Virus record (IMG/VR): IMGVR_UViG_3300027906_000153
Span: 1 to 23,986 of that record
Origin: a virus
Reading direction: 5' to 3' (one strand)
DNA length: 23,986 bases
The translations under genes were made by a program, and so were the position numbers. The notes beneath the pieces are model-generated. The model was not told where the DNA came from and did no database searches. It saw only the letters and a program-made list of their open reading frames with translations. Position 1 is the stretch's first letter. Each line of letters begins with the position of its first letter. Below, piece after piece: positions 1 to 23,986 of this stretch.

Positions 1-1
1 A

Positions 2-3000
2 AATTTAACTCATGTTTCTGGAACACAAGTTGGTAGTTATAAAATTAAAAAAATAGACAGTTCGACAATTACATATCAGTTAAATGAAGATGCATATCAA
101 ATGAATTGTGCTTATACTGCTACAAATCCTGTAGTTATTACAAATGTTGGTCATGGTTTAGCAGATAATGATATAGTACAAGTTTACGATATGGTTAGTG
201 GAAATGCAATTGCCGTAGGATCATATGTTGCAACTGAACTTACCTCTGATACTTTTTCTATTCCTGTAGATGGAACAACAAGTGGTGCAGGTCGTTTAAA
301 TTATTATAGAAATTTAATGAAGGGGGATCAAGTTAAATGTACATATGTGAGAGGACAGGAATCAGACGGTACGGGTGGTACAACATACGTATCACGAAAA
401 AAAATAGTATCTGTGCCACAAATGGTTTTCAATACTCCTTCAGAGATGACCAATAACACATTTAATTTAATTAAACAAAGTGATACTGTAACTACTCCTT
501 CACTTCAAGGAAAATTAGTAAAATTTAATGAAGATGATAATGTATTTAAATATGTTGCAACTACTTCTGCTGGAGCAATTACATCTGATTCATTTGCAAA
601 TAACACTATAATTGATTTAGAGGGAGGTGATTTACCTCTTAGAATTCATATAAAGGCGAACACATATCCTACACATAATATACATCCCTTTAATTCTTCT
701 GCACCAAAAGTAGAAGGAACCTTTCCTGAAGATGGGGAATCATTTCCAAGAAAATTAACAGTTTCAAATATTTTAAGACGAGGAAAAACTGCTATTATAG
801 AAACAAATCATCCACATAATTTATCTAAAGGGGATGAAATTAAGATATTGGGTTCAACAAATAGTGTTTATAATTTAGAGACAAAAGTATTAGCCGCACC
901 TACGGCAAATACTTTACATTATGAATTAACGGCATCATCATTTATAGGTGTACAAAGTCCTGCTCCTGGTCCTGTAAAAATACAAACAAAGGCAACTGGT
1001 TCTTTTGCAGATGCTTTTAATGCTATTATTATAAATTTTAGTCAGTCAATGAATACGAGTACGATTTCTGTTTCTAATAGTTCTCATATTATTTCCGCTG
1101 ATGGATCATCGGCGGTATTTGCTGGAGAACAAGATTCTGCTTCAAGTACAGTACAAATGTCTGATGATGGATTTGAAAATATTGAACAATGTGTTTCAAT
1201 AACTCCAAGTAAAGGTAATTCGTCTTTTGCACTTCTTCCTTCAACTATAAAAAGAAATCATAGTTATAAAATTAGAGTTACAGATGATGTTCAGGATTTA
1301 GGAAAAACAAATCTTGTTTATCAGTATGAATCTACAGAGGGGATTGATGTTGGATTAAAGATTATTGATCCTAAAACAGGGCAATCAACCATTTATTCAA
1401 GAGATGAAGATCCTCCCGAAATTAAAAAGATATCAATTTCATCAACTGCGGGAACTGCTGGATTTGCTGGAAAAGTTTTAGAAAGTAAAACTGCTTCTGA
1501 AATAAGTTCCCCTAGTACGTATCAGGACGTTGATATTGATCTGGATACTGAATCTATAATTATACAATTTACTGAAGAAATGAATATTGCTTCTGTGACC
1601 ACTGCTACTAGCAATACAACTCCTGTGGGAACGGTTCAATTGTCTTGTGATAGTTTTAATACAGTTGTTCAAATGACTTCTACTTCACCAGTAGTTTCAA
1701 AGACCGAAGAAGAGAATGATACATTTACTTTTACTCCTGTAGCAAATTTAGCAGGAGGTGCAAATTATACATTAAAGGTTTCAAAAGGTGTTTCAGACGG
1801 TTCTCCAGAAAATAATCAGATGGCGGAAGATAATGTTACTTCTTCTATAATTCTAACTTTGAATTCAACGAGTACAATAGATTCTACTAATACTTTTGTT
1901 GCTGGAGAAATTATTAATGGTCTTAGAACAATAAGCATTAAATCAAATACAAACCCTGCTAACACTCCTATAGATGTTGGAGACTTAGGCGATGGTGTTT
2001 TTCCTGCTAATAGTGATGCAACTGTAACATTGGGAGATGAATTTATAGGATTAACTTCTAAAGGTAAAGGTAAAGTTTTTGATTATCTTCCAGATGCATG
2101 GACTCCCAATGGTAGTACAAATCCTGCGGCTACAAATTATGTAAGTGCAATAACAAGCATGAGATATACAGAAATTCCTGGATTAGATGGGACTATTACA
2201 AAATTAATTCCTGGTGAAACCTGTAGAATTAATGCAACTCATAGTTTTGTAATCGATAATGTTGCTATTACACCTGATCCAGAAGGAGAAGTTATATCAG
2301 TGGATCTTTCTTCTTCACCAAAAACTGTTACTTATAGAAATCTTAAAGTTGATGCTGATTTTATAACAGGCAGTACAACTATAGGGTCTTCTTCAGATAG
2401 AATTATAGGAAGAGAGTCTAATGGACATTTTGTTGGGCATGAAAGTACCAAGCAAACTGGACCAGGATTTAAAATGGCCTCTACGGCTGTAGTTTCTGAT
2501 GTAAAATTTGCAAATACAGATGGAGATGTAGTATCAATTTTAAGTGCAAATCAAAATTCTATTAATTGTACTGCAAATTTTAAAGTTGGATTTACACAAA
2601 CAATGAATGTCGATAGTTTAAATTATCCTGCAAGTTCTCTTGTACCTGCTAATCATGATTATAATATTATATTTTCATATGATAGTAGTTTTAAAAATGC
2701 AATTCCATTTGATTCAATTACTGGTTCGAATAATGATACTTCTTTTGAGTTAAGACCTGCAATATTAGCAAATACAAGTTTAAATTTAACACAAAATTCA
2801 AAAATTTATGCAACTGTAACTGATACTGCAAAAAGTAAGGGTGGGACAACTCTTGCATCAACTGCTACTTATACAACATATTATGCTAATACTGCATCGA
2901 ATCATGATTTTAAAGCAATACAATGTGAAGTAATGACTTATGATGGACAGATTATTGAATTAGGAGTAGGAGGGTCTGGATCTATGCCTAATCAGTCTTC

Positions 3001-3316
3001 AATAATTTCTAGAAATTATCCCATTGTAATTCATTTTAATGAGGCGATCTTATTATCAACATTCGCAATAGGTTCAGGTAATGAAATAGAATTGTCTACT
3101 GCATCTGGATTTGGTTCTGGACATTTTACGGATATGAGAGTTGAGAGATCAGGAGAATTTGGAAATAAAATTGTTTTAACTCCAACAACTACTACTGGAT
3201 TAGCGGCATCTACACAATATTATATAAGAGTTGTTTCAGGTGTAGGTGGAACGAATGAAACAGGAGTAACATTAGCATCAACTGTATATTTTAATTCATT
3301 TACAACAACTTCATAG
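2..3316 (+). CDS. Large Ig-like (Big_5/SbsA-like) virion protein, 5'-truncated by window edge
   Basis: The reading frame is open from base 2, so the ATG at 101 is probably internal and the protein begins upstream of the window; about 1104 residues are visible. It looks like a multidomain extracellular/virion protein. The N-terminal part holds two HGL-type beta modules (131-309 and 788-982), and base 2 onward resembles the back half of another. The rest holds four Big_5/SbsA-like Ig units. Each opens with an F-S/T-x-x-M-N type strand (IIINFSQSMN near 1030, IIIQFTEEMN near 1555, FKVGFTQTMN near 2580, IVIHFNEAIL near 3025) and closes with a Y-x-I/L-x-V strand (YKIRVTDDV, YTLKVSKGV, YYIRVVSGV). 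Family knowledge: such domains occur in phage fibres and surface proteins. Its place directly before the baseplate wedge genes suggests a baseplate-attached decoration or fibre; that is inference. No catalytic motif was seen. Confidence 0.8.
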   Translation, partial: NLTHVSGTQVGSYKIKKIDSSTITYQLNEDAYQMNCAYTATNPVVITNVGHGLADNDIVQVYDMVSGNAIAVGSYVATELTSDTFSIPVDGTTSGAGRLNYYRNLMKGDQVKCTYVRGQESDGTGGTTYVSRKKIVSVPQMVFNTPSEMTNNTFNLIKQSDTVTTPSLQGKLVKFNEDDNVFKYVATTSAGAITSDSFANNTIIDLEGGDLPLRIHIKANTYPTHNIHPFNSSAPKVEGTFPEDGESFPRKLTVSNILRRGKTAIIETNHPHNLSKGDEIKILGSTNSVYNLETKVLAAPTANTLHYELTASSFIGVQSPAPGPVKIQTKATGSFADAFNAIIINFSQSMNTSTISVSNSSHIISADGSSAVFAGEQDSASSTVQMSDDGFENIEQCVSITPSKGNSSFALLPSTIKRNHSYKIRVTDDVQDLGKTNLVYQYESTEGIDVGLKIIDPKTGQSTIYSRDEDPPEIKKISISSTAGTAGFAGKVLESKTASEISSPSTYQDVDIDLDTESIIIQFTEEMNIASVTTATSNTTPVGTVQLSCDSFNTVVQMTSTSPVVSKTEEENDTFTFTPVANLAGGANYTLKVSKGVSDGSPENNQMAEDNVTSSIILTLNSTSTIDSTNTFVAGEIINGLRTISIKSNTNPANTPIDVGDLGDGVFPANSDATVTLGDEFIGLTSKGKGKVFDYLPDAWTPNGSTNPAATNYVSAITSMRYTEIPGLDGTITKLIPGETCRINATHSFVIDNVAITPDPEGEVISVDLSSSPKTVTYRNLKVDADFITGSTTIGSSSDRIIGRESNGHFVGHESTKQTGPGFKMASTAVVSDVKFANTDGDVVSILSANQNSINCTANFKVGFTQTMNVDSLNYPASSLVPANHDYNIIFSYDSSFKNAIPFDSITGSNNDTSFELRPAILANTSLNLTQNSKIYATVTDTAKSKGGTTLASTATYTTYYANTASNHDFKAIQCEVMTYDGQIIELGVGGSGSMPNQSSIISRNYPIVIHFNEAILLSTFAIGSGNEIELSTASGFGSGHFTDMRVERSGEFGNKIVLTPTTTTGLAASTQYYIRVVSGVGGTNETGVTLASTVYFNSFTTTS
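131..309 (+). repeat. HGL-type beta module, copy 1
   Basis: The translated stretch begins VVITNVGHGLADNDIVQVYD and continues with a G-S-Y and T-F-S-I pattern. It matches the consensus H-G/N-L-x-x-G-D-x-V-x-V-x-G shared with the copies at 788-982, 7960-8130 and 12889-13062. The similarity is at protein level only. Boundaries are approximate. Confidence 0.6.
788..982 (+). repeat. HGL-type beta module, copy 2
   Basis: The translated stretch contains HPHNLSKGDEIKILG followed by a Y-N and a T-L-H-Y pattern. It is the second copy of the HGL module in the same truncated gene. Boundaries are approximate. Confidence 0.6.
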
Positions 3317-3327
3317 GAGAAAATATT

Positions 3328-3570
3328 ATGCCATTAAGTAGTGCTAAATCAGGATTAGAAGCGGAACTTAAAAAAGCGTTTAAAGAAGGTTCTGCTAATA
3401 ATTCCGAAGGATATGTTGCAACTGCAATTGCAACGGCCGTACACAACTATACTTCTCAAGCATTAGTAGAACTTACAATGTGTACTACTACAGTTTCAGG
3501 TGCTTCGGTTTCGGGAGGACCAGTTACAGGAAGCGGAACACTTATAAAGGGTATAGGAAAATTAACATAG
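3328..3570 (+). CDS. Small protein of unknown function (80 aa), virion cassette
   Basis: An 80-residue protein starts 11 nt after the Ig-like gene with a clear Shine-Dalgarno (AGGAGA, 3315-3320, 7 nt before ATG). The first half is likely helical (SSAKSGLEAELKKAFKEG, then an Ala-rich ATAIATAVHNY stretch). The last third is a Gly/Ser/Thr/Val-rich tail (VSGGPVTGSGTLIKGIG). The general look, an LSSAK-type helix followed by a Gly-rich tail, resembles small proteins found beside structural genes in marine T4-like phages, but I know no assigned function. There is no signal peptide, membrane segment or catalytic motif. Tight coupling to the preceding gene suggests the two are made together; a role as a small virion or assembly component is inference. 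Confidence 0.75.
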   Translation: MPLSSAKSGLEAELKKAFKEGSANNSEGYVATAIATAVHNYTSQALVELTMCTTTVSGASVSGGPVTGSGTLIKGIGKLT

Positions 3571-3579
3571 GTATTTCTG

Positions 3580-3587
3580 ACTAAATA
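3580..3587 (+). promoter_or_regulatory. Putative T4-type late promoter for gene 25 (ACTAAATA)
   Basis: The octamer ACTAAATA differs from the T4 late consensus TATAAATA at its first two positions. It lies exactly 5 nt (aacat) before the ATG at 3593, the same spacing as at genes 8 and the minus-strand gene. The 15 bases 3582-3596 are identical to 10241-10255 at gene 8. No Shine-Dalgarno is visible before this ATG. In T4 the start site is about 5-7 nt past the octamer, which here is the A of the ATG. Confidence 0.6.
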
Positions 3588-3592
3588 AACAT

Positions 3593-4093
3593 ATGGGTTA
3601 TAACACAGACATAAACAGTAAAAATTTCGGAAATTGGGAAGAAGATGTAGTTTTTGAAGAGGTTAATATATCTGATGAACAGGCAAAGATTAATAACATC
3701 CTCTCAGAAATGCATCAACCCAAAGATTTAAGTTTAAAGTTTATTAACAATCCTAATACAGGAGATGTTGGACTAAAAACTGGTTCTAATGCAGTAAGAG
3801 AATCTATAAAGAATTTAATACAAACAGGAAGATACGAAAGGCCGTTTCAACCAACCTTAGGATCAAACATACAAAATTTATTATTTGAACCAAATGATTT
3901 GATCACTATGCAATTGCTTGAAGATGAAATAAGAACAGTAATAGAAAATTGGGAAAAAAGAGCAAGAGTTATGGATGTTGGTATTGAAAGTATAAGGGAT
4001 GGTTTTGAATATAAAGTTGTAATAACTTTTTCAGTTGTTAATGAAACTGAACCAGTAACTTTTACAACATTTTTACAACGGACAAGAGGGTAA
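3593..4093 (+). CDS. 25: Baseplate wedge subunit gp25
   Basis: A protein of the GPW/gp25 family, a baseplate wedge component next to gp6 that helps link the wedge to the sheath initiation region. The conserved core is visible: RYERPFQPTLGSNIQNLLFE at about residues 82-101, then a region rich in I, E and W (VIENWEKRARVMDV), ending in the strand pair VVITFSVVNETEPV. T4 gp25 is 132 residues. This one is 166, the extra being an acidic N-terminal extension of about 40 residues before DLSLKF. An in-frame ATG at codon 40 (3710) would give a T4-like length but has no ribosome site, so the first ATG is preferred. The chosen ATG also lacks a Shine-Dalgarno and sits 5 nt after a late-promoter octamer. 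It is followed at 4 nt by gene 6. Confidence 0.93.
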   Translation: MGYNTDINSKNFGNWEEDVVFEEVNISDEQAKINNILSEMHQPKDLSLKFINNPNTGDVGLKTGSNAVRESIKNLIQTGRYERPFQPTLGSNIQNLLFEPNDLITMQLLEDEIRTVIENWEKRARVMDVGIESIRDGFEYKVVITFSVVNETEPVTFTTFLQRTRG

Positions 4094-4097
4094 TTAA

Positions 4098-5987
4098 ATG
4101 GCTACAGAAGCATCTAAATTAAGAGTTTCGGAATTAGATTTCGATCAAATAAAAAATAATTTTAAATCTTTTCTTAGAGAACAAGATATCTTTAGGGATT
4201 ATAATTTCGAAGGTTCAACTATTGCTCATCTTTTAGATATTTTAGCATATAATACACATTATAATTCTTTTTATTTGAACATGGTTGCAAATGAAATGTT
4301 TATAGATTCTGCTACTACTAGAAGTGCTATGGTATCTTTATCAAAAATGTTGGGTTATACGCCAAGATCAAGAACAGGTGCTAAAGCGAATGTCAATATA
4401 TCAGTAACTCCTGATGATTCTCCATCGAATATAACGATAGCAAAAAACACAAAATTTAATACATCAATTAATGGTGTTAATTATGTTTTTGTTACAGATC
4501 AAGCATATTCACAAACTGCAAATAATGATAATTCTACTATCACTCTTCAAAACGTATCATTAGTTGAAGGGGAGCCACTATCTTTTAGATATACAGCCAA
4601 TACAAAAGATAGTTCGCAAAGATTTACAATTCCTAATCGAGGAGTTGATCATTCAACTGTTACGGTTTCGATTAAAGAAAATTCTTTTACTACAGATTTA
4701 GTTCCTTATACACAAGCAACAGATTTACTTGAAACTTCTTCTTCTTCAAACATATATTTTGTCGAAGAAAATACAGATTTTTTGACTGATATAAAATTTG
4801 GTGATGGGGTTTTAGGTAGAAAATTAAAAAACGGAAATATTGTTATTATTGATTATAATGTTTGTGGAGGAGTATTAGGGAATGGTGCAAATAATTTTAC
4901 TGTTTCTTCAACTGCTGGTGGTTATGCAACTGTTACAGTAGCCACTAATGTTAAAGCAGAAGGTGGTTCTGATGAGGAGGCTTTAGATTCTATTAGATTT
5001 AACGCACCAAGACATTACAATACTCAAAATAGGGCAGTAACTAAAGACGATTATAAACGAATTATAATGAGAGACTATCCATTAGCAGAATCTATAGTCG
5101 TTTATGGTGGCGAAGAAGCAGATCCTCCTGAATATGGAAAAGTGTTTATAGGTATCAAACCTAAATCTGGACTCTATTTAACAGATTCCGTAAAAACAAA
5201 TATTAGAGATAATGTACTTAAAAAATATAATGTAGCATCAATTACACCAACATTTGTTAATATTGACTATATTTACATATTATTAACAACTACTGTTAAT
5301 TTTGATTCAAGATTGACTACAAGGCCTTCTCAAGCATTGAGAAAGTCAGTTATAGCATCAATAAACAATTATGTTAGTTCCGATCTTTATAAATTTGAAC
5401 AAACATTTAGACTGTCTAAACTACAAACACAAATAGATGATACTGATTCTTCTATTCTAGGAAACGATAGTGCTATTAGATTGAAAAAAACAATTACACC
5501 TACATTGAATCAAAAATTGTCTTATACTTTAAAGTTTAATAATGCTATTGAACATCCACAGTCTGGTTATGTATCTTTAGTTTCTACTGAATTTTCTATA
5601 AATGATGAACAAAATATTTTAAGAGATGAATGTAAATTAAAAGATGTTGATGGAACATTAAAAGTATACAGAGTGGATACTGAAGGAACAGAAATTACAG
5701 TCAGAGAAAATATAGGTAGTGTAGATTACATAACTGGAAAAGTAATATTAAACTCTTTTGATCCTGCTTCATACGAAGGAGCGGAACTTAGTATAACAAT
5801 TCTTCCTGTTTTAGGGGATGTTTTATCTTTAAGGGAACAGTTAATAACAATTGAAGAAGTAGATATTAATTTAAAAATGAATGATATTTCTATTGTAACT
5901 AAACAGACTCAGGTTGTAACTGCTGAAACCTCGGATACTTCTAGTGGAACCACGAAGACAATTCAAACAACAACGGTAAATTATTAA
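4098..5987 (+). CDS. 6: Baseplate wedge subunit gp6 (Baseplate_J-like)
   Basis: A T4 gp6 homologue, the main wedge protein that dimerises to form the inner baseplate ring. Length (629 aa) is close to T4 gp6 (660 aa). The N-terminus carries a typical stretch: DFDQIKNNFKSFLREQDIF, then FEGSTIAHLLDILAYNTHYN and SATTRSAMVSLSKMLGYTPR (residues about 14-95). Around residues 230-320 the Baseplate_J-type segment shows FGDGVLGRKL and GGSDEEALDSIRFNAPRHYN with RAVTKDDYKRIIMRDYP, a pattern widely shared with gpJ/gp6 proteins. The start is supported by a GAGGG Shine-Dalgarno (4086-4090, 7 nt before ATG) inside the end of gene 25. The stop is 1 nt before the next start, implying translational coupling. 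Confidence 0.94.
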   Translation: MATEASKLRVSELDFDQIKNNFKSFLREQDIFRDYNFEGSTIAHLLDILAYNTHYNSFYLNMVANEMFIDSATTRSAMVSLSKMLGYTPRSRTGAKANVNISVTPDDSPSNITIAKNTKFNTSINGVNYVFVTDQAYSQTANNDNSTITLQNVSLVEGEPLSFRYTANTKDSSQRFTIPNRGVDHSTVTVSIKENSFTTDLVPYTQATDLLETSSSSNIYFVEENTDFLTDIKFGDGVLGRKLKNGNIVIIDYNVCGGVLGNGANNFTVSSTAGGYATVTVATNVKAEGGSDEEALDSIRFNAPRHYNTQNRAVTKDDYKRIIMRDYPLAESIVVYGGEEADPPEYGKVFIGIKPKSGLYLTDSVKTNIRDNVLKKYNVASITPTFVNIDYIYILLTTTVNFDSRLTTRPSQALRKSVIASINNYVSSDLYKFEQTFRLSKLQTQIDDTDSSILGNDSAIRLKKTITPTLNQKLSYTLKFNNAIEHPQSGYVSLVSTEFSINDEQNILRDECKLKDVDGTLKVYRVDTEGTEITVRENIGSVDYITGKVILNSFDPASYEGAELSITILPVLGDVLSLREQLITIEEVDINLKMNDISIVTKQTQVVTAETSDTSSGTTKTIQTTTVNY

Positions 5988-5988
5988 A

Positions 5989-10224: not shown

Positions 10225-10238
10225 ACTTTTTTAATTAG

Positions 10239-10246
10239 CATAAATA
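10239..10246 (+). promoter_or_regulatory. Putative T4-type late promoter for gene 8 (CATAAATA)
   Basis: The octamer CATAAATA has one mismatch to the T4 late consensus and fits the NATAAATA form. It is 5 nt (aacat) before the ATG at 10252, inside the only long spacer (27 nt) of the wedge block. There is no Shine-Dalgarno between it and the ATG. The 15 bases 10241-10255 are identical to 3582-3596 at gene 25. Confidence 0.7.
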
Positions 10247-10251
10247 AACAT

Positions 10252-12033: not shown

Positions 12034-12036
12034 CGG

Positions 12037-15000: not shown

Positions 15001-18000
15001 AATTCTGGACAGATTTATATGGGAACATCAATAAATGTTGTTCCTGGTGTAGCAAATAGTTTAAAAATAGCAGATATTAAAAATTTAGTTGCAGTTGTAG
15101 ATTCATTAAATCCAACTAAAGAACTTACTAATGCTATGATTTCCGCGGCCGTTAGTGAAGGAGCGGCGAATGCTCATAATATAACTAGCAAGTTTGTATT
15201 TGATAATGGACAAAAAGACAATTATTATGATTATGGTACTATAACTTTAAAAACTGGACAAGACAAACCAGTTGGACAAGTAATAGCAATTGTAGATTAT
15301 TATAATCATACAGGTTATGGACCATTTACAGTAGACTCTTACATTTATGCGGGATCAGGAAATACATTATATGATGATGTTCCTTCATATACAAGTCCAA
15401 CAACTGGTGTTAAAGTAGAGTTAAGAGATATGATTGATTTCAGACCTAAAAGATTAGGATATGAAACTTCTGATGGAGTCAAATCTCAAACAAACGATAT
15501 TACTGCTACTGCAAATGTGTTTAATGAAAAGGCAATGCCTGATTACGATTATACATTTGATACAGATTATGAATATTATATTCCTAGAAAAGATAAGATT
15601 GTATTAAACAGAGATAAAACATTTAGTGTTCTTGAAGGTGTATCAGATAAGTTTCCACAATTACCTGCTGATGATGACGATTCAATGACATTGTATAATC
15701 TTGAAATGCCAGCATATACTTTTAATTCGGATGATATAAAAGTAAACTATGTTGATAATAAAAGATTTACAATGAGAGATATTGGTAAACTTGAAAGAAG
15801 AATTGAAAATCTTGAATATTATGTGTCTCTCAGTTTGTTGGAAAAAGAAGCAGATGGTTTAATTATTACAGATGCCAATAATCAAGATAGATTTAAAAAC
15901 GGCATTCTTGTTGATCCATTTGGAGGTCACAATATCGGAGATGTATTTAATCCAGATTATGCTTGTGCGATTGATTTTGAAAATAAACATTTAAGGCCTG
16001 GATTTAGTTCAGATTTACATAGAATGAATTTTAATGCAAATTCATCTGGTGGTACTGCCTTTTCAACCTTAGTAAACAATTCTGGAATATTAACTCTTCC
16101 ATTTGCGGCAAATACTTTTATACAAATGCCTCTTACAGGAACGAATGAAGGAAAGAATATTCAAAAAACTTTAAAGATAAATCCTTTCTCGGTTCAAAAT
16201 TATATTGGACAAATGAAATTAGATCCTTATAGTGATATTTGGTATGATCAAACGAGTAAGGTTACTGTTAAAGTTAATGTAGAAGGACAGTATGATGGAT
16301 GGAATTCAAGTGCATTAACTAATAAAGGTCATGGTACTCATTGGAATGATTGGGAAGAAATTTGGTCTGGCGCACAGATTAATAAGAATGTTAAAGAGGG
16401 TATTAGAGATGTTGGTGATGTAGGTACTAATGATAGAAAAGCAAAAACAACTAATCAAACAAAAACATTAACTGGATTAAGTACAGGAAGTGTTCCAGAA
16501 AAAATAATTAAAACTATTGGAAACAAAGTAGTTAATTTAAGTGTAATACCAAAAGTAAGACAACAGACAGTATCCTTTATTGCTAAAGGTTTAAAACCTA
16601 ATCAAAATGTATATGCATATTTTGGCGATAGAAATGTTAGTGCAAATGTTAAACAGGCCACACTTTGCGGTTTATCTAATGTAAGTACATCTAATGTATT
16701 TCGAACAACTCCAGGAAATTTTGAGCAAGTTACAATTCAAGGTTCTGGTGCGAATGCTGGAAATACTGCTAAAATTGTTTACATGGGTGATAGAAATACA
16801 CAAAATAATGTTACAGTATTGCTTACTGACTTGTCTACCGAAGCCGCTTTTTCTTCCGGAGCAGTAATACGAGGAGATCAAACTGGTGCGAATGGTGCTA
16901 TCTCTACAATTGTAAAATACGGATGGGAAGATTCACAACTTAGAGTTTCTAATGATGGGGTTGTTGGTGGTGAATTTAATATTACACCAGACACTTATAC
17001 AGGATCACAAAATCTGTTTAGAATAACTGATGAACCAGATAATATTCCTGCTCTAACAACTTCAGTTGCAGAAGATATATTTTATTCTGCAGGAGTAATT
17101 GATGCTAAGAATGAATTAGGATTGATCTCACCTAGACCATTTATTTCTAGGCGTGAGAATATGAAAGAAGAAAGAGTTACTAGATCCTCTTCTGATGGAA
17201 GGGCATCAAAGTCTACAGATTATATGAATCCAATGGCTCAAACTTTCTTTGTCGATAAAAATTTATATCCTGCAGGAGTTTTCATTGATTCAGTAACATT
17301 ATTTTTTAATTCAAAAGATACGGCAGTAGGAACAAAAACACCTGTTAATTTACAGTTACGACCTATGGTTAATGGGATGCCAAGTACATCATTGATTATA
17401 CCTGGAAGTGAAGTTGTATTAACTCCTGGAAAAATTACTGCAAATACAAGTACGCCAGTTGCAAACACATCAGGTGGTTTTCCAGAAGGATTTTTAGGAA
17501 ATTCAGGAACTGCAAATAAAAGTAATTCTAATAGAGGATCAAGAACACAGTTTAAATTTGATCATCCTATCTATCTTGCTCCAGATGAATATGCAATTTG
17601 TTTACAGACAAATAGTAGTTCGTATAAAATATATGGTTTTGAATATGGTGCATTTCATACAGGAACATCAAAGAAAATAACAAAGCAACCTTATATTGGA
17701 AGTTTCTATAAACCTTCAAATGCAGGTGTTTGGGAAGAAGTGTTAGACTCAGGACTAATGTTTCAATTAAATCGATGTGAATTTACTTCTTCAAATGCAT
17801 ATGCTAGACTGGATAATTCAGATATTTCCGCGGCCAATGGTTCTTCAAATACATCATTCGATTCATTTAATTTAATGACAGAAGTATTGGAGTTTGCAAA
17901 TACATTCACAGAATTTAAATATTTTGCTACAGATGTTGCTGGTGCAACAAAAGGTACTGCAACTAAGTTTAAGTTGAATAAAAATGTTGAACTTAAAAAA

Positions 18001-18942
18001 CAGAAACAAATTACATATCCACAAGCCGCAAATAATAGTTTTACTATTAATGCATTTTTTGAAACTGCCAATACTTTACTAACTCCTGTAATAGATGAAT
18101 TAAGAACAGGTGTAATTACTATTGAAAATGTTATTAACAATGGAAGTATATCAAATTCTGATGTTGTAGTTTCAAATTTTGGTACTGGGTATATTGGATC
18201 TCAAGTTGGAAACGCATCAAGTAATGTTGCTTCTGATGGTAATACAAGTGTGTTTGTAGTTTCTGATCCTGATACAGGCTCAAATACTGCAACATTAGCG
18301 GCCAATGTTCATGCAAATGGTATCATAAATCAAGTTGTTGTTAAGAACGGTGGTGCAGGATATTATTCCACACCAACTGTTACAATTTACGATGGTGGTA
18401 CATCTTCTGTATCTGATAATGTACAAGTTACATCAAGTGCCGTTGTTAGTATTGTGGGAGAAGGTGCTAATAATACTGCAACTTTATCAACAACAAATGT
18501 AATATCATTTTCTTCTGGTGGTAATGGAACCGCTAAATACATTTCAAGACGGGTTACTTTGGAAGAAGGATTTGATGCAGTTGATCTTAAAGTATATCTT
18601 GATGCATACAAACCAAGAGGTGCCAGCATTTATGCTTACTGTAAAGTTCTTTCTGGTGATGATTCAGAAAATTTTGACGATAAACCATGGTTTCTCATGG
18701 AACAAAAAACGGCAGATACAACATATTCATTAAACGAAGCAGATTTTAAGAGATTTGAGTTTAAAACTTTTGATGAAGTAATTTCTTATGTAGATAGTGG
18801 TGGAGCAAAATATACTAGATTTAGAACATTTTCAATAAAAGTTGTTATGCATTTAGATAGAGCATCACAAGATTCTTTTATAGGAATGCCTAAGATGATT
18901 AATTTACGTGCAATTGCTCTTGATAGTGAGGGTAAGCCTTGA
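12037..18942 (+). CDS. Giant DUF4815-type virion structural protein (2301 aa)
   Basis: A very large structural protein of the marine T4-like group, placed where T4 has genes 9-12; probably baseplate/fibre associated (inference). Residues 1-80 carry the DUF4815-like start: SPYYDDFNEVNKFYKVLYRP, QARELNQIQSILQNQLEKTG and YQDGSRVLGAE. KAYVKGFEFE near 493 fits the same domain. Further landmarks: IDFRPKR near 1135; IPRKDKIVLNRDKTF near 1180; RFTMRDIGKLERRIENLEYY near 1243, a possible short coiled coil; GQMKLDPYSDIWYDQ near 1392; MAQTFFVDKNLYPAGVFIDS near 1732, then LQLRPMVNGMP; and a C-terminal region from 2170 with SRRVTLEEGFDAVDLKVYLD. Repeat modules: HGL at 285-342, GDG-NQ at 419-481, GGAGY at about 2105. 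The start is supported by GGAG at 12024-12027. TGA overlaps the next start by 4 nt. Confidence 0.88.
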   Translation: MPKLTQDFNISPYYDDFNEVNKFYKVLYRPGYSVQARELNQIQSILQNQLEKTGDTLYQDGSRVLGAELVLNSKISSLKLQPQYAGAAIVASNFDGRIIQGVSSGAKAEVVVSQAFSTTTLDVLMINYVDDTKFLDNETINTIDEGTTYFALVAGENEGLTGADTTTNLASGIGSIISVNEGLFYVGGYFLYVSPQSLILDTVNNNPSKRVGLAIVETIVTSIEDADLLDNAIGTPNYTAPGANRYKIDLQLASKDYYDEGKTIASSGLTFSVNTKDNRSGTVSITTTTDHNLSVGDTIVVSGATEAEYNGKFTISGVGSTTTFSYLIQGKPSTPATGSPEYVKGVTDPITRSADNDFIELLRLENGEKIEEVKFPVLGNIEKILARRTFDASGDFTVRPFLLDVVDHKIGGTATERTVSNTSTTVTANGANFIADVNVGDSIFYSGNTMKTAEVAGVTNTTALTLTTGSALGDGSKNQKIGISSKVTAEMSAGKAYVKGFEFETITPTYINLNKARDTESVTAEKQGVEFGPYAVVSDVVSNTAWELGVNASTINATSGGTGMDLMDLHCVKWPATSYCHGSVSANAIISTSNGAFKYVAIDTTSAATIANTKIGTVRLRQLDHKKGRSSTVSSEFGYGADANGTYHIKFPAVFDAHLFDFRFSKVEGTVEAAIAANSSLVNLRETANAHPSSTISTTAIYPTVNALYGSTITVNTSYLGVNSSDTRKIIAWTGANSQAAMGFDLNGDGSAQASAYTAQLETPLTQPTQADTTYSLNFGVKDISSIATSSGTTITKAMNIDISGKDDATETGNTVLFDNSEDQRSLLFPFQNKTLGSLTKASYKLKRSFTTTLTGNSATLTASEAGEVFYPASGAGNVSGTVADSNYQVFIPGEGDYVEFSNTSGSSLGDGRYISLNDDGDQLTINVQSTTSGAKDYSANTIWVYATMMYKAAGATRSNGGIGTKTLVSGNVTVSNVGPSSTNTIQANSGQIYMGTSINVVPGVANSLKIADIKNLVAVVDSLNPTKELTNAMISAAVSEGAANAHNITSKFVFDNGQKDNYYDYGTITLKTGQDKPVGQVIAIVDYYNHTGYGPFTVDSYIYAGSGNTLYDDVPSYTSPTTGVKVELRDMIDFRPKRLGYETSDGVKSQTNDITATANVFNEKAMPDYDYTFDTDYEYYIPRKDKIVLNRDKTFSVLEGVSDKFPQLPADDDDSMTLYNLEMPAYTFNSDDIKVNYVDNKRFTMRDIGKLERRIENLEYYVSLSLLEKEADGLIITDANNQDRFKNGILVDPFGGHNIGDVFNPDYACAIDFENKHLRPGFSSDLHRMNFNANSSGGTAFSTLVNNSGILTLPFAANTFIQMPLTGTNEGKNIQKTLKINPFSVQNYIGQMKLDPYSDIWYDQTSKVTVKVNVEGQYDGWNSSALTNKGHGTHWNDWEEIWSGAQINKNVKEGIRDVGDVGTNDRKAKTTNQTKTLTGLSTGSVPEKIIKTIGNKVVNLSVIPKVRQQTVSFIAKGLKPNQNVYAYFGDRNVSANVKQATLCGLSNVSTSNVFRTTPGNFEQVTIQGSGANAGNTAKIVYMGDRNTQNNVTVLLTDLSTEAAFSSGAVIRGDQTGANGAISTIVKYGWEDSQLRVSNDGVVGGEFNITPDTYTGSQNLFRITDEPDNIPALTTSVAEDIFYSAGVIDAKNELGLISPRPFISRRENMKEERVTRSSSDGRASKSTDYMNPMAQTFFVDKNLYPAGVFIDSVTLFFNSKDTAVGTKTPVNLQLRPMVNGMPSTSLIIPGSEVVLTPGKITANTSTPVANTSGGFPEGFLGNSGTANKSNSNRGSRTQFKFDHPIYLAPDEYAICLQTNSSSYKIYGFEYGAFHTGTSKKITKQPYIGSFYKPSNAGVWEEVLDSGLMFQLNRCEFTSSNAYARLDNSDISAANGSSNTSFDSFNLMTEVLEFANTFTEFKYFATDVAGATKGTATKFKLNKNVELKKQKQITYPQAANNSFTINAFFETANTLLTPVIDELRTGVITIENVINNGSISNSDVVVSNFGTGYIGSQVGNASSNVASDGNTSVFVVSDPDTGSNTATLAANVHANGIINQVVVKNGGAGYYSTPTVTIYDGGTSSVSDNVQVTSSAVVSIVGEGANNTATLSTTNVISFSSGGNGTAKYISRRVTLEEGFDAVDLKVYLDAYKPRGASIYAYCKVLSGDDSENFDDKPWFLMEQKTADTTYSLNEADFKRFEFKTFDEVISYVDSGGAKYTRFRTFSIKVVMHLDRASQDSFIGMPKMINLRAIALDSEGKP
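12889..13062 (+). repeat. HGL-type beta module, copy 4
   Basis: Residues 285-342 of the 2301-aa protein: DHNLSVGDTIVVSGATEAEY, then N-G-K-F-T-I, T-F-S-Y and P-A-T-G-S-P-E-Y. It is the best match to copy 3 at 7960-8130. Confidence 0.75.
13291..13479 (+). repeat. GDG-NQ beta module, copy in the 2301-aa protein
   Basis: Residues 419-481: NVGDSIFYSGNTMKTAEVAG, then T-A-L-T-L-T and SALGDGSKNQKI. It is the partner of 9781-9984 in the gp7-position protein. Confidence 0.65.
18928..18932 (+). promoter_or_regulatory. Shine-Dalgarno supporting a TTG start
   Basis: GAGGG lies 6 nt before the TTG at 18939, inside the last codons of the 2301-aa gene. It decides the start of the small downstream gene, since the first in-frame ATG (19020) would lose 27 residues including the conserved-looking IIKTDDPRYNRD. 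Confidence 0.6.
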
Positions 18943-19166
18943 TAATAAAAACAGATGACCCAAGATATAATAGAGATCCATTTTCTAATGCGATTATAAG
19001 AACAGATCAAAAGGCTTTAATGAAGCACAGACAAAAATTAATGCAAGTGACTTCAATAAAGAATTCTGAAAATGAAATAAATAATTTAAGGTCTGAAGTT
19101 AATGATATAAAAGAAAATGTAAATAAAATATTACAGTTGTTAAAGGACAAAGATGGCAATATCTGA
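18939..19166 (+). CDS. Small coiled-coil protein (75 aa), TTG start
   Basis: A 75-residue charged protein. The start is TTG, overlapping the TGA stop of the 2301-aa gene by 4 nt and preceded by a strong GAGGG at 6 nt. Residues 1-20 (IIKTDDPRYNRDPFSNAII) resemble the N-terminus of small conserved proteins I recall from marine T4-like phages, without known function. Residues about 44-70 show heptad-like spacing (SENEINNLRSEVNDIKENVN, then ILQLLKD), a likely short coiled coil able to oligomerise. Its end overlaps the fibre-like gene by 14 nt, so the three genes are probably translationally coupled. A fibre chaperone or small trimeric virion linker are possible roles, both only inferred from position and coiled coil. 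Confidence 0.8.
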   Translation: MIIKTDDPRYNRDPFSNAIIRTDQKALMKHRQKLMQVTSIKNSENEINNLRSEVNDIKENVNKILQLLKDKDGNI

Positions 19167-20883
19167 TACCACGGTATCGAGTGTAGAATTAGTTAATACA
19201 TTTGAACAGTGGCGTACAAAAACAAATCAAATTATTACAGTATTAAATGAAAATTCAGATACGGATCCTGCATCTAATTTGATTTCTGCTAATTCATTAG
19301 GCGGTCTTCAGATTAATACAATAACTTCAAATCTTGTTTCAGGTGCGAATGTAACGGGATCTAAATTGCTATTTTCTGGTGGTACTGTAGATTTTTCTGG
19401 AGCAACTGTTACAGATGCGGGTACTGTTAAAAAGTTTGCATTAACTGAAAATGTTGGTGCAACTATTACTGGTGCTACTCCTGACAGTAAAATTGAAAGA
19501 GCCCAAATAAATGAATGTGAGATAAATTTAAATGGAGCAAATTTACAAGCCAACGGTGCATCTACTATTACTCTTACTGGTGCGACAATTGCTGACTTAG
19601 GTACAGTTTCTTTGTTTAATGCTGAAGGCGGAACACTTAATAATGTGAATGTTAGTGTGACTGATACCGCTAAAGTTTGGGTGATGTCCGCTCCTGGTCC
19701 TCACGTTATGACTGGTGCGGCATTTGCAAATGGACAATATAATAATGCAACTTCTGTAGGTGGATTTACTCATTCTGCAAACATATCAGTAAATACTTCA
19801 TCTTATCTTGTTTCAAATACTGCTCCAATTCTTGGTGCTGATGTTACAAATGCTAATGTTGCGATTGGAAATTTTCCAGAATGGGATGGTGTAACTTTAA
19901 CTGCCGCTACTTCTGCTAAAGGACGATTGCATATAAGAACGCATTTTGCGAATCCTGGAGGTGCGGCCACTGCTTCAGAAACAAACGCAGATGAATTAAT
20001 ACTAGAAGGAAACACTAATGTAGGTATGACATTATTTGCAAATAATACTGCAAATGTTACAATTGCTTTTGGTGATTCTGATGATGCTGATAGAGGTGGT
20101 ATTTTATATAATCATGCAAATGATGAAATGCACATTGTTACTGATGCCGCTAATACAGTTGTATTTGGAAATGAGTTTGGTGGATTTATGCAAATTGTTG
20201 GGTCAGATACGTATTCAGGATCTGCCGCACAAGCAGGTAAATTGCATATAAATGTTGGATCAACTGATGGGACTTCGGGAGTTTTTATAGATTCAAATGA
20301 TATAGATCAAATAGCAATTTCAGTTGATGCCGCACAAACTACTGGAAATGTTATTGATATTAATGCGGATACTTATACAGAAGGACATGTTATTTCATTA
20401 CATAATGGTTTGGGAACAGGAACTTCTCATTCTTCAAATGGATCTTTAATAAAAATAACAGATAATAATAGTTCTACAAATGCTAGAGCGGTAATGGATA
20501 TAATACAAGACGCCGGTGGAGCAACAGGAACTATGGGTATAAGAGTGACAACTGATGGTGGTCAAGGAATGTTTGTACTGCAAAATGCAGATAAAAATGG
20601 AGTACGTTGTGATTCAACTGCGGATCATGCAGAAGCACTAGGATATTTTTTGTCAAATAGTGCATCTTCAACAGGTAGTACATTATTTGTTCAAGGAAAA
20701 AGTTCAACAGCCGGCACAAAAGTGTTTAATGTTCAAAATTCTTCAGCAGATGTAATGTCAACTCTTGCTAATGGTTCAATAACATTTCATAATCAAGCCG
20801 TACTTGCGGCTAATGCGACCGCTAATGTTAATTGTAGATTAGCAGTTTTAGATACATCTGGTAACATTTTAAATGGAACGTAA
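19153..20883 (+). CDS. Fibre-like virion protein (576 aa) in the fibritin/wac position
   Basis: A beta-rich, Gly/Ala/Thr/Asn-rich protein without cysteine-rich or enzymatic motifs. The N-terminus (about residues 14-31, NTFEQWRTKTNQIITVLN) has the short amphipathic W-R-x-K-T-N segment common at the N-terminus of fibre-like proteins of marine T4-like phages, probably the virion attachment end. Residues about 60-175 show short turns of alternating hydrophobic and N/G/T residues (VSGANVTGSKLLFSGGTVDF, INLNGANLQANGASTITLTG), compatible with a beta-helix or repeated beta-prism. Later parts (GILYNHANDEMHIVTDAANT near residue 316) resemble fibre shaft domains. AAAGGA at 19142-19147 is a good Shine-Dalgarno 5 nt before ATG. 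T4 has wac (fibritin) directly before gene 13; this gene has that position but no fibritin-like coiled coil, so homology is not claimed. Confidence 0.8.
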   Translation: MAISDTTVSSVELVNTFEQWRTKTNQIITVLNENSDTDPASNLISANSLGGLQINTITSNLVSGANVTGSKLLFSGGTVDFSGATVTDAGTVKKFALTENVGATITGATPDSKIERAQINECEINLNGANLQANGASTITLTGATIADLGTVSLFNAEGGTLNNVNVSVTDTAKVWVMSAPGPHVMTGAAFANGQYNNATSVGGFTHSANISVNTSSYLVSNTAPILGADVTNANVAIGNFPEWDGVTLTAATSAKGRLHIRTHFANPGGAATASETNADELILEGNTNVGMTLFANNTANVTIAFGDSDDADRGGILYNHANDEMHIVTDAANTVVFGNEFGGFMQIVGSDTYSGSAAQAGKLHINVGSTDGTSGVFIDSNDIDQIAISVDAAQTTGNVIDINADTYTEGHVISLHNGLGTGTSHSSNGSLIKITDNNSSTNARAVMDIIQDAGGATGTMGIRVTTDGGQGMFVLQNADKNGVRCDSTADHAEALGYFLSNSASSTGSTLFVQGKSSTAGTKVFNVQNSSADVMSTLANGSITFHNQAVLAANATANVNCRLAVLDTSGNILNGT

Positions 20884-20891
20884 GATAATTC

Positions 20892-21902
20892 ATGGCAAAA
20901 CCTAGCACAAGAGAAGAATTAAAACAATATTGCCTTAGAACTTTAGGTAAACCAGTCATTGAAATAAATGTAGAAGATGATCAACTGGAAGATCGCATAG
21001 ATGAAGGCTTGCAATTTTTTCAAGAATATCATTTTGATGGTGTTGAAAGAATGTATAACATACATCAAATCACTGGTTCAACTGTAACTATTGCTTCAAA
21101 TACAGGAGCATTTACAGTAGGTGAAAAAATAACTGGAGGAACATCAAATGCAACTGCAAATGTAGTCGCCGCCAATACTACAGTTATTACTTTCAAACAT
21201 CATAGAGATACAAATGATATTGCAAATAATAATGTATCATCTAGTTTTTCGAATGGCGAAACAATAACAGGAAGTTCAAGTGGTTCAACGGCAGTAGCCG
21301 CTACAGCCGAAACAATAGTTACTTTTGGAGATGTAGATAATCGTTATATACCGATAGACGATTCTATAATTGGAGTAACAGGTATTTTTGACATACAAGA
21401 TATAAGTGGAACAAATAGAACAAGTGATTTGTTTTCTTTTAGATATCAATTTCATTTAAATGAAATGCCATATCTTACTGCTACTTCGGTGATAAATTAT
21501 AAAATGTCTATGCAACATCTTTCATTATTAAATGATATGTTTGCAGGAAAAAAACCAGTTAGATTTTCAAGACATCAAAATAGATTGTATCTAGATATTG
21601 ATTGGGATCAAGATGATATAAAAATAGATGAATATATTGTTGCAGAATGTTATAGAATAATTGATCCTACAAAATTTTCAGATGTATATAATGATATGTT
21701 TTTGAAGAAGTATACAACTGCATTGTTTAAACGACAATGGGGTGCTAATTTAATAAAGTATGAAGGTGTACAACTTCCAGGAGGAACAACATTAAATGGA
21801 AGAACACTATTTGAAGAAGCAAATCAAGAGATTACTAATGTAGAAGAACAAGCATCTCTTAAATACGAATTACCAGTAGACTTTATGGTTGGTCCAGGAT
21901 AA
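20892..21902 (+). CDS. 13: Neck protein gp13 (head completion/connector)
   Basis: A T4 gp13 homologue, which with gp14 forms the neck that closes the filled head and accepts the tail. Typical N-terminus: STREELKQYCLRTLGKPVIE and DQLEDRIDEGLQFFQEYHFD (residues about 4-50). Typical second half: DNRYIPIDDSIIGVTGIF near 150, SRHQNRLYLDIDWDQDD near 227, ECYRIIDPTKF near 253, LFKRQWGANLIKYEGVQLPG near 281 and an E-rich end. T4 gp13 is 309 residues, this one 336. The core is interrupted at about residues 60-147 by an insertion with two G-E-x-I-T-G-x-S/T-S units (77 and 122), modules seen in the baseplate genes. Spacing to the fibre gene is 8 nt; the Shine-Dalgarno is weak. Its stop and the gene 14 start share one base (TAATG). 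Confidence 0.94.
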   Translation: MAKPSTREELKQYCLRTLGKPVIEINVEDDQLEDRIDEGLQFFQEYHFDGVERMYNIHQITGSTVTIASNTGAFTVGEKITGGTSNATANVVAANTTVITFKHHRDTNDIANNNVSSSFSNGETITGSSSGSTAVAATAETIVTFGDVDNRYIPIDDSIIGVTGIFDIQDISGTNRTSDLFSFRYQFHLNEMPYLTATSVINYKMSMQHLSLLNDMFAGKKPVRFSRHQNRLYLDIDWDQDDIKIDEYIVAECYRIIDPTKFSDVYNDMFLKKYTTALFKRQWGANLIKYEGVQLPGGTTLNGRTLFEEANQEITNVEEQASLKYELPVDFMVGPG

Positions 21903-22762
21903 TGCCTACAAACGCTTATTTTAATCATTTTCAAAATACATCAGAACAAAATTTACATCAAGATTTGATTATAGAATCTATAAAAAATTTTGGCATAGAC
22001 AACTATTATCTCCCAAGACAATATATGAATGAGGATCTTCTTTACGGAGAAGACACTATTTCTCAATTTAATCAATCTCATTTAATAGAAATGTATGTTA
22101 AATCAGTTGATGGTTTTGAGGGAGAAGGTGATTTCATTTCAAGATTTGGATTAGAGATAAGAGATCAAGTAATTTTTTCTGTAGCAAGAAGAAGATGGGA
22201 AAATCTAGATACAGGTTATGATAGACCAAGAGAAGGTGATATAATATTTTTTCCATTAAACAAAAAATTATATGAAGTTCGATTTGTTGAGCATGAGTCG
22301 ATGTTTTATCAGTTTGGTAAATTACCTATTTTTGATTTAACATGTGAATTGTTTCAATATGACGATCAAAGAATTGATACTGGTATTGATGATATAGACG
22401 AAATAGAAGATAAATATGCTTATTCAATAGAAGTAAATCTTGATTCAGGAGGTTCAGGAAATTATGTAGAAGACGAATATGTATATGTTGGTAGTACGGA
22501 AAGTTCTGCTAATACGAAAGGAAGAGTAATTTCTTGGAATTCCACTGATAGAGTATTGAAACTAACAGATTTAATGGGAACTTTTTCATTAAGTCAAAAT
22601 GTAGTTGGAAATACAAGTGGTGCTTATTTTACGGTTGGTACTACACCTAATACACAAACATTCGTTAATGATACATCTGCAAATAATATTACAATTCAAA
22701 CTGAATCAGATTCTATTATAGATTTCTCTGAATCTAATCCATTTAGTGAAAGTAATTATTAA
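21902..22762 (+). CDS. 14: Neck protein gp14
   Basis: A T4 gp14 homologue, partner of gp13 in the neck. Family features: N-terminal YFNHFQNTSEQNLHQDLIIE, then NYYLPRQYMNEDLLYGED; GFEGEGDFISRFGLEIRDQV near residue 71; RRRWENL; REGDIIFFPLNKKLYEVRF near 110; FYQFGKLPIFDLTCELFQYD near 135; then IDTGIDDIDEIEDKYAY. T4 gp14 is 256 residues, this one 286. From about residue 178 an inserted beta stretch carries VEDEYVYVGSTE near 190 and VVGNTSGAYFTVG near 233, again the G-x-T-S-G-A type module. The start overlaps the gene 13 stop by one base and has AGGA only 2 nt upstream, so coupled re-initiation is likely. Its TAA is shared with the stop of the minus-strand gene through the palindrome TTAA (22759-22762). 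Confidence 0.94.
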   Translation: MPTNAYFNHFQNTSEQNLHQDLIIESIKNFGIDNYYLPRQYMNEDLLYGEDTISQFNQSHLIEMYVKSVDGFEGEGDFISRFGLEIRDQVIFSVARRRWENLDTGYDRPREGDIIFFPLNKKLYEVRFVEHESMFYQFGKLPIFDLTCELFQYDDQRIDTGIDDIDEIEDKYAYSIEVNLDSGGSGNYVEDEYVYVGSTESSANTKGRVISWNSTDRVLKLTDLMGTFSLSQNVVGNTSGAYFTVGTTPNTQTFVNDTSANNITIQTESDSIIDFSESNPFSESNY

Positions 22763-23109
22763 GTTGTAGATTCTGGTAAGACTGTAATCATTCCTCCAAC
22801 AACTCTCTCCCTTGTCACGTTATCACTTTGAAGATATTCAATATCATATACATATAAACCAGAAGCCATTTCACCAGTTGTTGTAGAATTTGCAGTAATT
22901 GTAACATTACTACCTGAAACAGATGTTGAAAAGGTAAGAATCCAAGAAGTATTAGTAGTTGTGTGGTTCTTTTTCATTTTAGAAGCACAGGTACCGGTAC
23001 TTATGGTCACATTGGAGTTATTTGCATCTTTAGCAGTAAAAACTTTTTCAAAGTTACTGCCTTGATACATTGTTAAATTTTCGCCTTGAGTTTTTATTGA
23101 TAGTGCCAT
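22759..23109 (-). CDS. Small Ig-like virion protein (116 aa), only minus-strand gene
   Basis: A 116-residue, beta-rich protein. The pattern is an initial beta strand with Q-G-x-N-F (NLTMYQGSNFEKVFTAKD), a central V-T-I-T-A-N strand and a final GLYVYDIEYLQSDNVTRERV plus GGMITVL. This layout, with the terminal G-x-Y-x-Y-D-I/L-E motif, resembles a common small phage protein type with an Ig-like or BppU N-terminal-like fold; that is by pattern only, no search was run. It breaks the gene 14-15 order on the opposite strand: tail to tail with 14 (4-nt overlap) and head to head with 15. No Shine-Dalgarno is visible. A perfect late-promoter octamer on the minus strand ends 5 nt before the ATG, so it should be expressed late. 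A decoration or baseplate role is inference. Confidence 0.85.
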   Translation of the reverse strand: MALSIKTQGENLTMYQGSNFEKVFTAKDANNSNVTISTGTCASKMKKNHTTTNTSWILTFSTSVSGSNVTITANSTTTGEMASGLYVYDIEYLQSDNVTRERVVGGMITVLPESTT

Positions 23110-23114
23110 AAGAC

Positions 23115-23122
23115 TATTTATA
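23115..23122 (-). promoter_or_regulatory. T4-type late promoter TATAAATA, minus strand
   Basis: A perfect match to the T4 late consensus on the minus strand (plus strand reads TATTTATA). It is followed by gtctt and then the ATG of the minus-strand gene, so the usual late start site would fall on or beside the A of the ATG. Two bases separate it from the plus-strand octamer at 23125-23132. Confidence 0.75.
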
Positions 23123-23124
23123 CA

Positions 23125-23132
23125 ACTAAATA
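23125..23132 (+). promoter_or_regulatory. Putative late promoter for gene 15 (ACTAAATA)
   Basis: The same octamer as upstream of gene 25. The expected start site is near 23138, leaving a leader of roughly 19 nt with a TGGAG Shine-Dalgarno (23148-23152) before the ATG at 23157. It is a divergent, back-to-back partner of the minus-strand TATAAATA. It is weaker than a perfect consensus in this AT-rich DNA. Confidence 0.5.
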
Positions 23133-23156
23133 ATACTGTAAACTTTATGGAGTATT

Positions 23157-23986
23157 ATGTTAGGACAAACTTTTTATCATCAGACAATAAGAAAATATGT
23201 TGCATTATTTGGAACATTGTTTAATGATATTAATATAGAAAAAAAGAATTCGTCTGGAATAGTTGTATCTAGACAAAAGGTCCCTATATCTTATGGACCA
23301 AAACAAAAGTTTCTATCAAGAATAAATCAAGATGCTAGTTTAGATAGACAAGTTGCTATTCAATTGCCTAGAATGGCTTTTGAAATGACGGGTATGGCTT
23401 ATGATCCTGTGAGAAAATTAAATTCCGTAGGAACAGTAACGCATAAAGAAACATTGAATGGTAATAGAAATGTCAAAAAAATGTATAATCCTTCTCCATA
23501 CATTTTTGATTTTTCTTTATATGCATTTGTTGATAATGCTGAAGATGGCACTCAAATATTAGAACAGATTTTACCGTTCTTTACTCCAGAATTTAATGTG
23601 AGTGTAAATATTTTAACAGATATGGGAATTAAGATAGATGTTCCTATTATTTTTCAAAGTGCCACAAGTGAAGATTCTTATGAAGGAGAATTTTCTGCTA
23701 GAAGAACGATTATTTGGTCAATAGCATTCATGTTAAAGGCGTTCATTTATCCTGATATCAAAGAAGGTGGTTCAATTATAAAAACAATTGAAGTCGCATT
23801 TAAAGAAATGATTCCTGATATTCCAGCAAATGGAACTTTTGATAGATTCTCTTTAGAATCTAGTACAAATTTTTCAGAAGATTTCTTTCAATTAGAAACA
23901 GGTGATCATTTGATAACAGAGGAAAGTGAAACGAAACTAGGACTTGATAACGTGATAAGTAAAATTACAGTTGTTCCTGAAGGTGG
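23157..23986 (+). CDS. 15: Tail terminator / sheath stabiliser gp15, 3'-truncated by window edge
   Basis: A T4 gp15 homologue, which forms the hexameric ring closing the tail tube and sheath and docks to the neck. The frame is open from ATG 23157 to the window end, 276 residues visible without a stop; T4 gp15 has 272. Family matches: FYHQTIRKYVALFGTLFNDI at residues 6-25; VPISYGPKQKFLSRI near 46, equivalent to T4 V-P-I-T-Y; NPSPYIFDFSLYAFVDNAED near 110; ILEQILPFFTPEFNVSVN near 133; and SARRTIIWSIAFMLKAFIYP near 181. A TGGAG Shine-Dalgarno ends 4 nt before the ATG. It is separated from gene 14 by the inverted small gene and has its own candidate late promoter, so it may begin a new late transcript leading into genes beyond the window. 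Confidence 0.93.
   Translation, partial: MLGQTFYHQTIRKYVALFGTLFNDINIEKKNSSGIVVSRQKVPISYGPKQKFLSRINQDASLDRQVAIQLPRMAFEMTGMAYDPVRKLNSVGTVTHKETLNGNRNVKKMYNPSPYIFDFSLYAFVDNAEDGTQILEQILPFFTPEFNVSVNILTDMGIKIDVPIIFQSATSEDSYEGEFSARRTIIWSIAFMLKAFIYPDIKEGGSIIKTIEVAFKEMIPDIPANGTFDRFSLESSTNFSEDFFQLETGDHLITEESETKLGLDNVISKITVVPEG

Follow-up and report, generated by a model that had tools for sequence, protein, structure and literature searches.

Complete and clade-wide absence of GCWGC, a known Type II restriction site, in T4-like phages with relatives that encode a predicted cytosine-modification cassette

The 23,986-bp stretch analysed here (the window), which spans positions 1 to 23,986 of the linear virus record IMGVR_UViG_3300027906_000153 and has 32.5% G+C, is a piece of a marine T4-like phage genome in which the pentanucleotide GCWGC (GCAGC or GCTGC) does not occur at all. 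It holds 10 complete genes on the plus strand, with PHROG matches that include baseplate wedge proteins (Table 1). The best isolate match of its gp6 was Pelagibacter phage HTVC008M (39.8%), followed by Methylophilales and Synechococcus phages, and the TerL of a relative matched Synechococcus and Methylophilales phages at ~58% identity. Since these matches are distant and spread over phages of Pelagibacter, Methylophilales and Synechococcus, no host was assigned.

Both GCAGC and GCTGC number 0 in the window, while GCGGC appears 19 times and GCCGC 13 times, a count on one strand covering both strands because GCWGC is its own reverse complement. The first-pass annotation, which had reported the two words as wholly absent, is thus borne out over the 23,986 bp. 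All 32 GCSGC (GCGGC or GCCGC) sites are in-frame Ala-Ala codon pairs with GCC or GCG as first codon; the first-codon rule described in that annotation therefore stands, though for 32 pairs and not the 31 it had counted, and the positions that it listed are exact at 6847, 10966, 15145 and 15163, those near 20144, 21167 and 2113 being corrected to 20146, 21168 and 2126. Across the 10 complete genes alanine is encoded by GCA 264 times, GCT 141, GCC 52 and GCG 49, and the share of GCA/GCT by the following two bases is 0/32 before GC, 43/53 before GA, 29/34 before GG and 18/27 before GT. At overall alanine usage, the probability that all 32 codons would be GCC or GCG is 4e-23. Synonymous-codon shuffles preserving proteins and codon usage (400 trials) gave an expectation of 26.6 GCWGC (standard deviation 2.5, minimum 19) and reached zero in 0/400 cases, so that the codon-preserving null proposed in the first-pass annotation speaks against a chance zero. 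With codon-junction dinucleotides preserved as well, 20.1 sites were expected. A 4-mer Markov model predicted just 9.5, a low figure because such a model absorbs part of the GCWGC effect.

Nearly all of the GCWGC expected in the window (25.5 of about 26) would lie in in-frame Ala-Ala pairs, and therefore the window alone cannot separate an effect on DNA from an effect on codons. This concentration in frame is what a codon-pair or mutational bias would have in its favour, GCA or GCT before GC being disfavoured in translation or lost by mutation. However, frames 2 and 3 of the pooled clade of related phages described below contain 0 GCWGC versus 28.2 expected (11 versus 7.2 in outgroups), and over the same genes the outgroups are nearly normal in total (143 versus 168.3 expected). 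The out-of-frame zero therefore indicates that selection acts on the DNA, not on codon pairs, and a codon or mutational bias appears extremely improbable. The intergenic DNA of the clade (0 versus 2.7 expected) offers too few sites to judge. Mutational decay of a modified cytosine by deamination was also rejected, as it would erase the GC dinucleotides; both are kept and the middle base alone changes.

Table 1. Features of the window and position of the modification cassette on related contigs (coordinates are those of the window unless a locus is named).
Feature	Coordinates	Strand	Remarks
Entire window	1..23986	.	T4-like phage fragment; GCWGC 0, AGCT 0, AGTACT 0
1071-residue protein	101..3316	+	No PHROG match; GCSGC Ala-Ala pairs at 893, 2126, 3203
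80-residue protein	3328..3570	+	No PHROG match
Baseplate wedge subunit	3593..4093	+	phrog_261; presumably gp25-like
Baseplate wedge subunit gp6	4098..5987	+	phrog_219; first query used for relatives
1411-residue baseplate-wedge-like structural protein	5989..10224	+	GCSGC at 6847, 9310, 10129
Baseplate wedge subunit	10252..12033	+	phrog_438; GCSGC at 10444, 10795, 10966, 10969
2301-residue protein, function unassigned in phrog_358	12037..18942	+	13 GCSGC pairs, 12295 to 18298
576-residue protein	19153..20883	+	No PHROG match; 7 GCSGC pairs, 19717 to 20806
Neck protein gp13	20892..21902	+	HTVC008M neck protein match; tree marker; GCSGC at 21168, 21297
286-residue protein, probably neck protein gp14	21902..22762	+	Position only
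116-residue open reading frame	22759..23109	-	Open reading frame call only
Incomplete open reading frame (cut by window end), probably tail-sheath stabilisation protein	23160..23986	+	Position only
CmoY-CmoX(-CmoA) cassette	L191:7202-9937; L166:7865-9924(-); L207:1024-3762		Homology

Relatives were collected by gp6 (at least 80 loci) and by gp13 (at least 80 loci), and a midpoint-rooted gp13 tree of 51 rows placed the window in a 37-row clade (support 98/95). GCWGC is zero in 36 of these 37 rows, several of which are short and would be expected to contain 1 to 3 sites; the exception, L108, has a single GCWGC close to the end of its contig (bases 7468-7472 of 7474). Over 648,569 bp from 27 contigs or loci, which are related and include near-identical phages and hence are not 27 independent trials, the clade contains 0 GCWGC versus 489 expected and 578 GCSGC versus 112 expected, so that clade and window (0 versus 26.6) both lie far below a protein- and codon-preserving null. 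In contrast, near outgroups keep the word (observed/expected 14/15 in L117, 8/8 in L118, and 15/12), and two outgroup contigs have 28 GCWGC in 48.6 kb (G025) and 16 in 39.7 kb (G010). Locus L010 had seemed purged at first (0/3), but its contig, G010, has GCWGC in both halves (15 + 1) and was moved to the outgroups, while the place of L120 (0/6) in the tree was not resolved. Among 44 homologous, overlapping Ala-Ala comparisons, the outgroups use GCW in 27/44 and the clade GCC or GCG in 44/44. An assembly or sampling artefact was discarded, since a single metagenome (3300009104) yields the purged L082 (0/18) together with the normal L036 (29/27) and L310 (29/34).

Other short words are missing as well. 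The largest hole in the window is AGCT, which the first-pass annotation did not mention (0 versus 63.2 expected by shuffling); AGTACT is likewise absent (0 versus 10.8) and ACAGC/GCTGT is partially lost (5 versus 46.4). Within the AGCT-free group, AGTACT is 0 versus 31 expected, ACAGCC appears normal (22 versus 16.8) and ACAGCA is reduced (13 versus 82), the depletion of ACAGC in this group sparing sites followed by C. AGCT is zero in the basal members of the clade (L113, L114, L115 and the window), whereas in a derived subclade of 32 rows (branch supports 92/88, 96/94 and 96/93) AGCT has returned and GCWGC is still zero. Hence, selection against GCWGC is separate from that against AGCT, and it is current. 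The return of AGCT is incomplete: the derived contigs used for word counts (L166-L174, L184-L185 and L372-L374) have 318 AGCT versus 704 expected (about 45%), and the residual shortage sits in longer words (observed/expected: CAGCTG 2/67, AAGCTT 4/63, GAGCTC 1/9). These contigs are also depleted in AGCGCT (1/18), GAGCAC (0/19.5), GTGCAC (0/9) and AGATCT (11/74), the losses of GAGCAC, GTGCAC and GAGCTC in derived clade 1 together corresponding to GWGCWC. This landscape of depleted words is that expected from several Type II specificities. Separately, at least 8 of 14 T4-like sets show a strong shortage of CGWCG, with or without the CmoX gene described below, and this shortage is perhaps a general bias of these T4-like phages.

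The first-pass annotation had raised the possibility of a phage-encoded modification system and suggested searching relatives for a methyltransferase. Such a gene is indeed present: contig G021 (76.9 kb, zero GCWGC, containing gp13) encodes a C5-methyltransferase homologous to CmoX of Synechococcus phage S-B43 (SpCmoX, PDB 8yf3; E 2e-105, 49% identity). The CmoX proteins of the clade, known from seven loci on seven contigs (L186-L191 and L207), belong to the C5-methyltransferase family PF00145, with the SPPC motif and an arginine replacing Asn304 of HhaI, and in alignment A1 the catalytic C112 and the carboxy-S-adenosylmethionine (Cx-SAM) arginine R395 are invariant in 10/10 sequences; the assignment of the CmoX arginine as R350 follows PMC12783734. 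CmoX, CmoY and CmoA homologues share 44-51% identity with the S-B43 system, CmoY adjoins CmoX, and the cassette is located between gp46 and ORF777, near gp45/gp44. Six clade contigs that cover the relevant region encode both CmoX and CmoY. Among the clade CmoX contigs, CmoA appears in L191 and L207 alone, both of them AGCT-free; L186-L190 and the examined parts of G021 and G034, all incomplete contigs, yielded no CmoA, and in other clade contigs, which are fragments, no CmoX was found. In the derived contigs G021 (L166-L169) and G034 (L372-L375), CmoX and CmoY are kept, CmoA was not found in the parts examined and AGCT has returned. Locus L191 comes from metagenome 3300009593, as do L002 and L081, copies of the window at 99.9% identity, and its signature matches that of the window (observed/expected: AGCT 0/37, GCWGC 0/10, AGTACT 0/4, ACAGC 0/9). 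We infer from L191 that the window's own phage may have the cassette, no contig joining the two. The CmoY homologue of L191 (7202-8013) is split over two overlapping frames, which reflects either a true frameshift or a sequencing error.

According to PMC12783734, CmoX carboxymethylates cytosine in GC motifs using Cx-SAM that must be supplied by CmoA, CmoY adds glycine, and S-B43-type modification blocked HhaI. By homology, the activity predicted for the cassette of the clade is carboxymethylation of cytosine within GC dinucleotides. The cassette resembles the CmoA-CmoX-CmoY system of S-B43 in its adjacent homologues and in the conserved catalytic cysteine and Cx-SAM arginine. It differs in lying outside the window and in that CmoA was not found in the examined parts of G021 and G034; S-B43, moreover, does not avoid GCWGC.

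The GCWGC purge probably belongs to a known phenomenon, restriction-site avoidance. The first-pass annotation had proposed selection against a restriction or methylation site of TseI/BbvI-type specificity. Selection at the DNA level that is clade-wide, ongoing and accompanied by the loss of other short palindromes sustains that proposal, the identity of host and nuclease apart. Known enzymes, TseI and ApeKI, recognise the word that is avoided and cut unmodified GCWGC according to PMC4926085; the specificity of these Type IIP enzymes is the purged one, with GCSGC tolerated. Orthodox Type II site avoidance is described as typical of non-temperate phages (PMC6286503), and the double-stranded DNA phages treated there likewise show near-total loss of short palindromes with their proteins preserved. 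Our case differs from them in that not one site is left in about 0.65 Mb of sequence from related contigs, and in the predicted cytosine-modification cassette. We consider it probable that GCWGC has been under long-lasting counter-selection by a Type II restriction enzyme of the host range, of TseI/ApeKI/BbvI type, the agent being inferred to be a host nuclease. Bacteria of the host range would carry an orthodox Type II enzyme cutting GCWGC, each new GCWGC would reduce phage survival on entry, and synonymous changes would remove it, shifting the first codon of Ala-Ala pairs to GCC or GCG despite an AT-rich genome.

Several observations weigh against host restriction of the unmodified site. The analysis turned up neither a host nor a nuclease or methyltransferase specific for GCWGC, host genomes not having been searched. 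If the clade modified GC as S-B43 does, its CmoX/CmoY(/CmoA) cassette should block an ordinary Type II enzyme and the pressure should drop, as in PMC6286503, where five coliphages with a hydroxymethylase avoid 2.4% of sites versus 55.8% in four without one. Moreover, derived clade 1 is depleted in GC-containing palindromes more than in the remaining ones (median observed/expected 0.45 versus 0.97, p=0.0055 uncorrected, one of 14 sets tested), a bias that Type II enzymes drawn at random need not produce; the same bias appeared in clade 2, a purged group without CmoX described below (p=0.035), the remaining 12 sets giving p > 0.05. The coexistence of the purge with GC-modification genes could mean that modification is incomplete, that it comes too late, that the enzyme is not blocked by it, or that the enzyme wants the modified site.

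The last of these options leads to modification-dependent restriction, in which GCNGC, with its four cytosines turned by CmoX into 5-carboxymethylcytosine or its glycine amide, would be cut by a host BisI-type enzyme preferring GCWGC. The cassette itself, with its conserved catalytic residues, the neighbouring CmoY and the CmoA of L191 and L207, points in this direction. So do PMC4926085 and PMC11347163, according to which enzymes of the BisI family require GCNGC to carry more than one modified cytosine, and NhoI and Dsp20I reportedly prefer GCWGC; what the family naturally targets is called unclear there, since GC-specific methyltransferases were known only from chlorella virus and viral metagenomes. 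No BisI gene was found here, none having been searched for. Among BisI enzymes, none is known to cut carboxymethylated DNA and NhoI fails on glucosylated 5-hydroxymethylcytosine (PMC11347163); modification-dependent sites are, besides, described as only weakly avoided in PMC6286503. Both contigs with CmoA are AGCT-free and those lacking it have AGCT back, but this match amounts to one evolutionary event.

The distribution of CmoX across lineages was compared over 72 loci with CmoX and 63 that lack it near gp46, omitting loci < 9 kb except L286 and L308 and dropping in each test lineages with < 8 expected sites. GCWGC was lost in 4/28 CmoX lineages versus 1/20 lineages without CmoX, absence here referring to the surroundings of gp46 (about 10 kb) and not to the whole genome (p=0.39); lineage thresholds of 75, 80 and 85% gave p of 0.28, 0.39 and 0.37. 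AGCT was lost in 4/31 versus 3/29. Clustering the loci by DNA identity merged almost all of them and was of no use. CmoX as a general cause of GCWGC loss is thus unsupported. In addition, the S-B43 genome, with an assayed CmoX, has 59 GCWGC versus 53 expected, whereas clade 2 (G027, 125.9 kb) has 1 GCWGC versus 147 and 0 AGCT versus 320 expected, and no CmoX was found in its 125.9 kb. Therefore, the purge cannot in general be put down to CmoX, and having CmoX does not exempt a phage from it. Avoidance was not found to depend on GC modification, which lowers the standing of a general rule and not the case for a host enzyme in this clade. As for the first-pass suggestion of a phage-encoded modification system, the relatives do carry one, but published CmoX acts on GC dinucleotides generally and its presence does not predict GCWGC loss. 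At the same syntenic place, clade 2 (L366:15489-19744, corresponding to 35489-39744 of G027) encodes a 2OG-Fe(II) oxygenase, a small methyltransferase, a 519-residue N6/N4-type methyltransferase and a weak PALP match. Clade 2 (L365-L371) also lacks many palindromes (observed/expected: TTTAAA 0/84, TGATCA 0/38, AACGTT 0/38, AGATCT 0/44). Parallel loss or near-loss of GCWGC was observed in other lineages with CmoX, namely G038 (L376-L379; 5/127 in 80 kb), L197 (0/15), L237 (1/31) and L240 (0/26).

On this evidence, cutting of a CmoX-modified site by a BisI-type enzyme appears unlikely. The broader proposal that the phage's own hypermodification drives the purge, blocking ordinary restriction and exposing GCWGC (and AGCT in the CmoA branch) to modification-dependent nucleases, is similarly unlikely. 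It would require phages that are both modified, with carboxymethylated and perhaps glycinylated GC, and free of exposed sites, and the link of BisI nucleases to this clade is hypothetical. A different possibility is that the phages encode a GCWGC nuclease of their own, for instance one that degrades host DNA, and have purged their sites for immunity. This would explain the clade-wide permanence whatever the host. The annotated regions showed no candidate nuclease, no systematic search for one having been made, and GCWGC loss is parallel in clades 2 and 3, L197 and L237/L240, which makes an own nuclease quite improbable.

The clade constitutes a natural experiment in which the pressure on AGCT was lifted in one branch and that on GCWGC was kept. 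That a cytosine-modification cassette and total avoidance of GC-containing sites occur together goes against the published pattern in which cytosine-modified phages cease avoidance. If true, the hypermodification proposal would provide a natural target for the BisI family, and the joint occurrence of modification cassette and site avoidance makes the purpose of BisI-type enzymes testable. As the purge is complete and lineage-wide, the missing words are usable as a fossil record; they may show which restriction enzymes uncultured marine phages have faced, and hint at the hosts of these phages.

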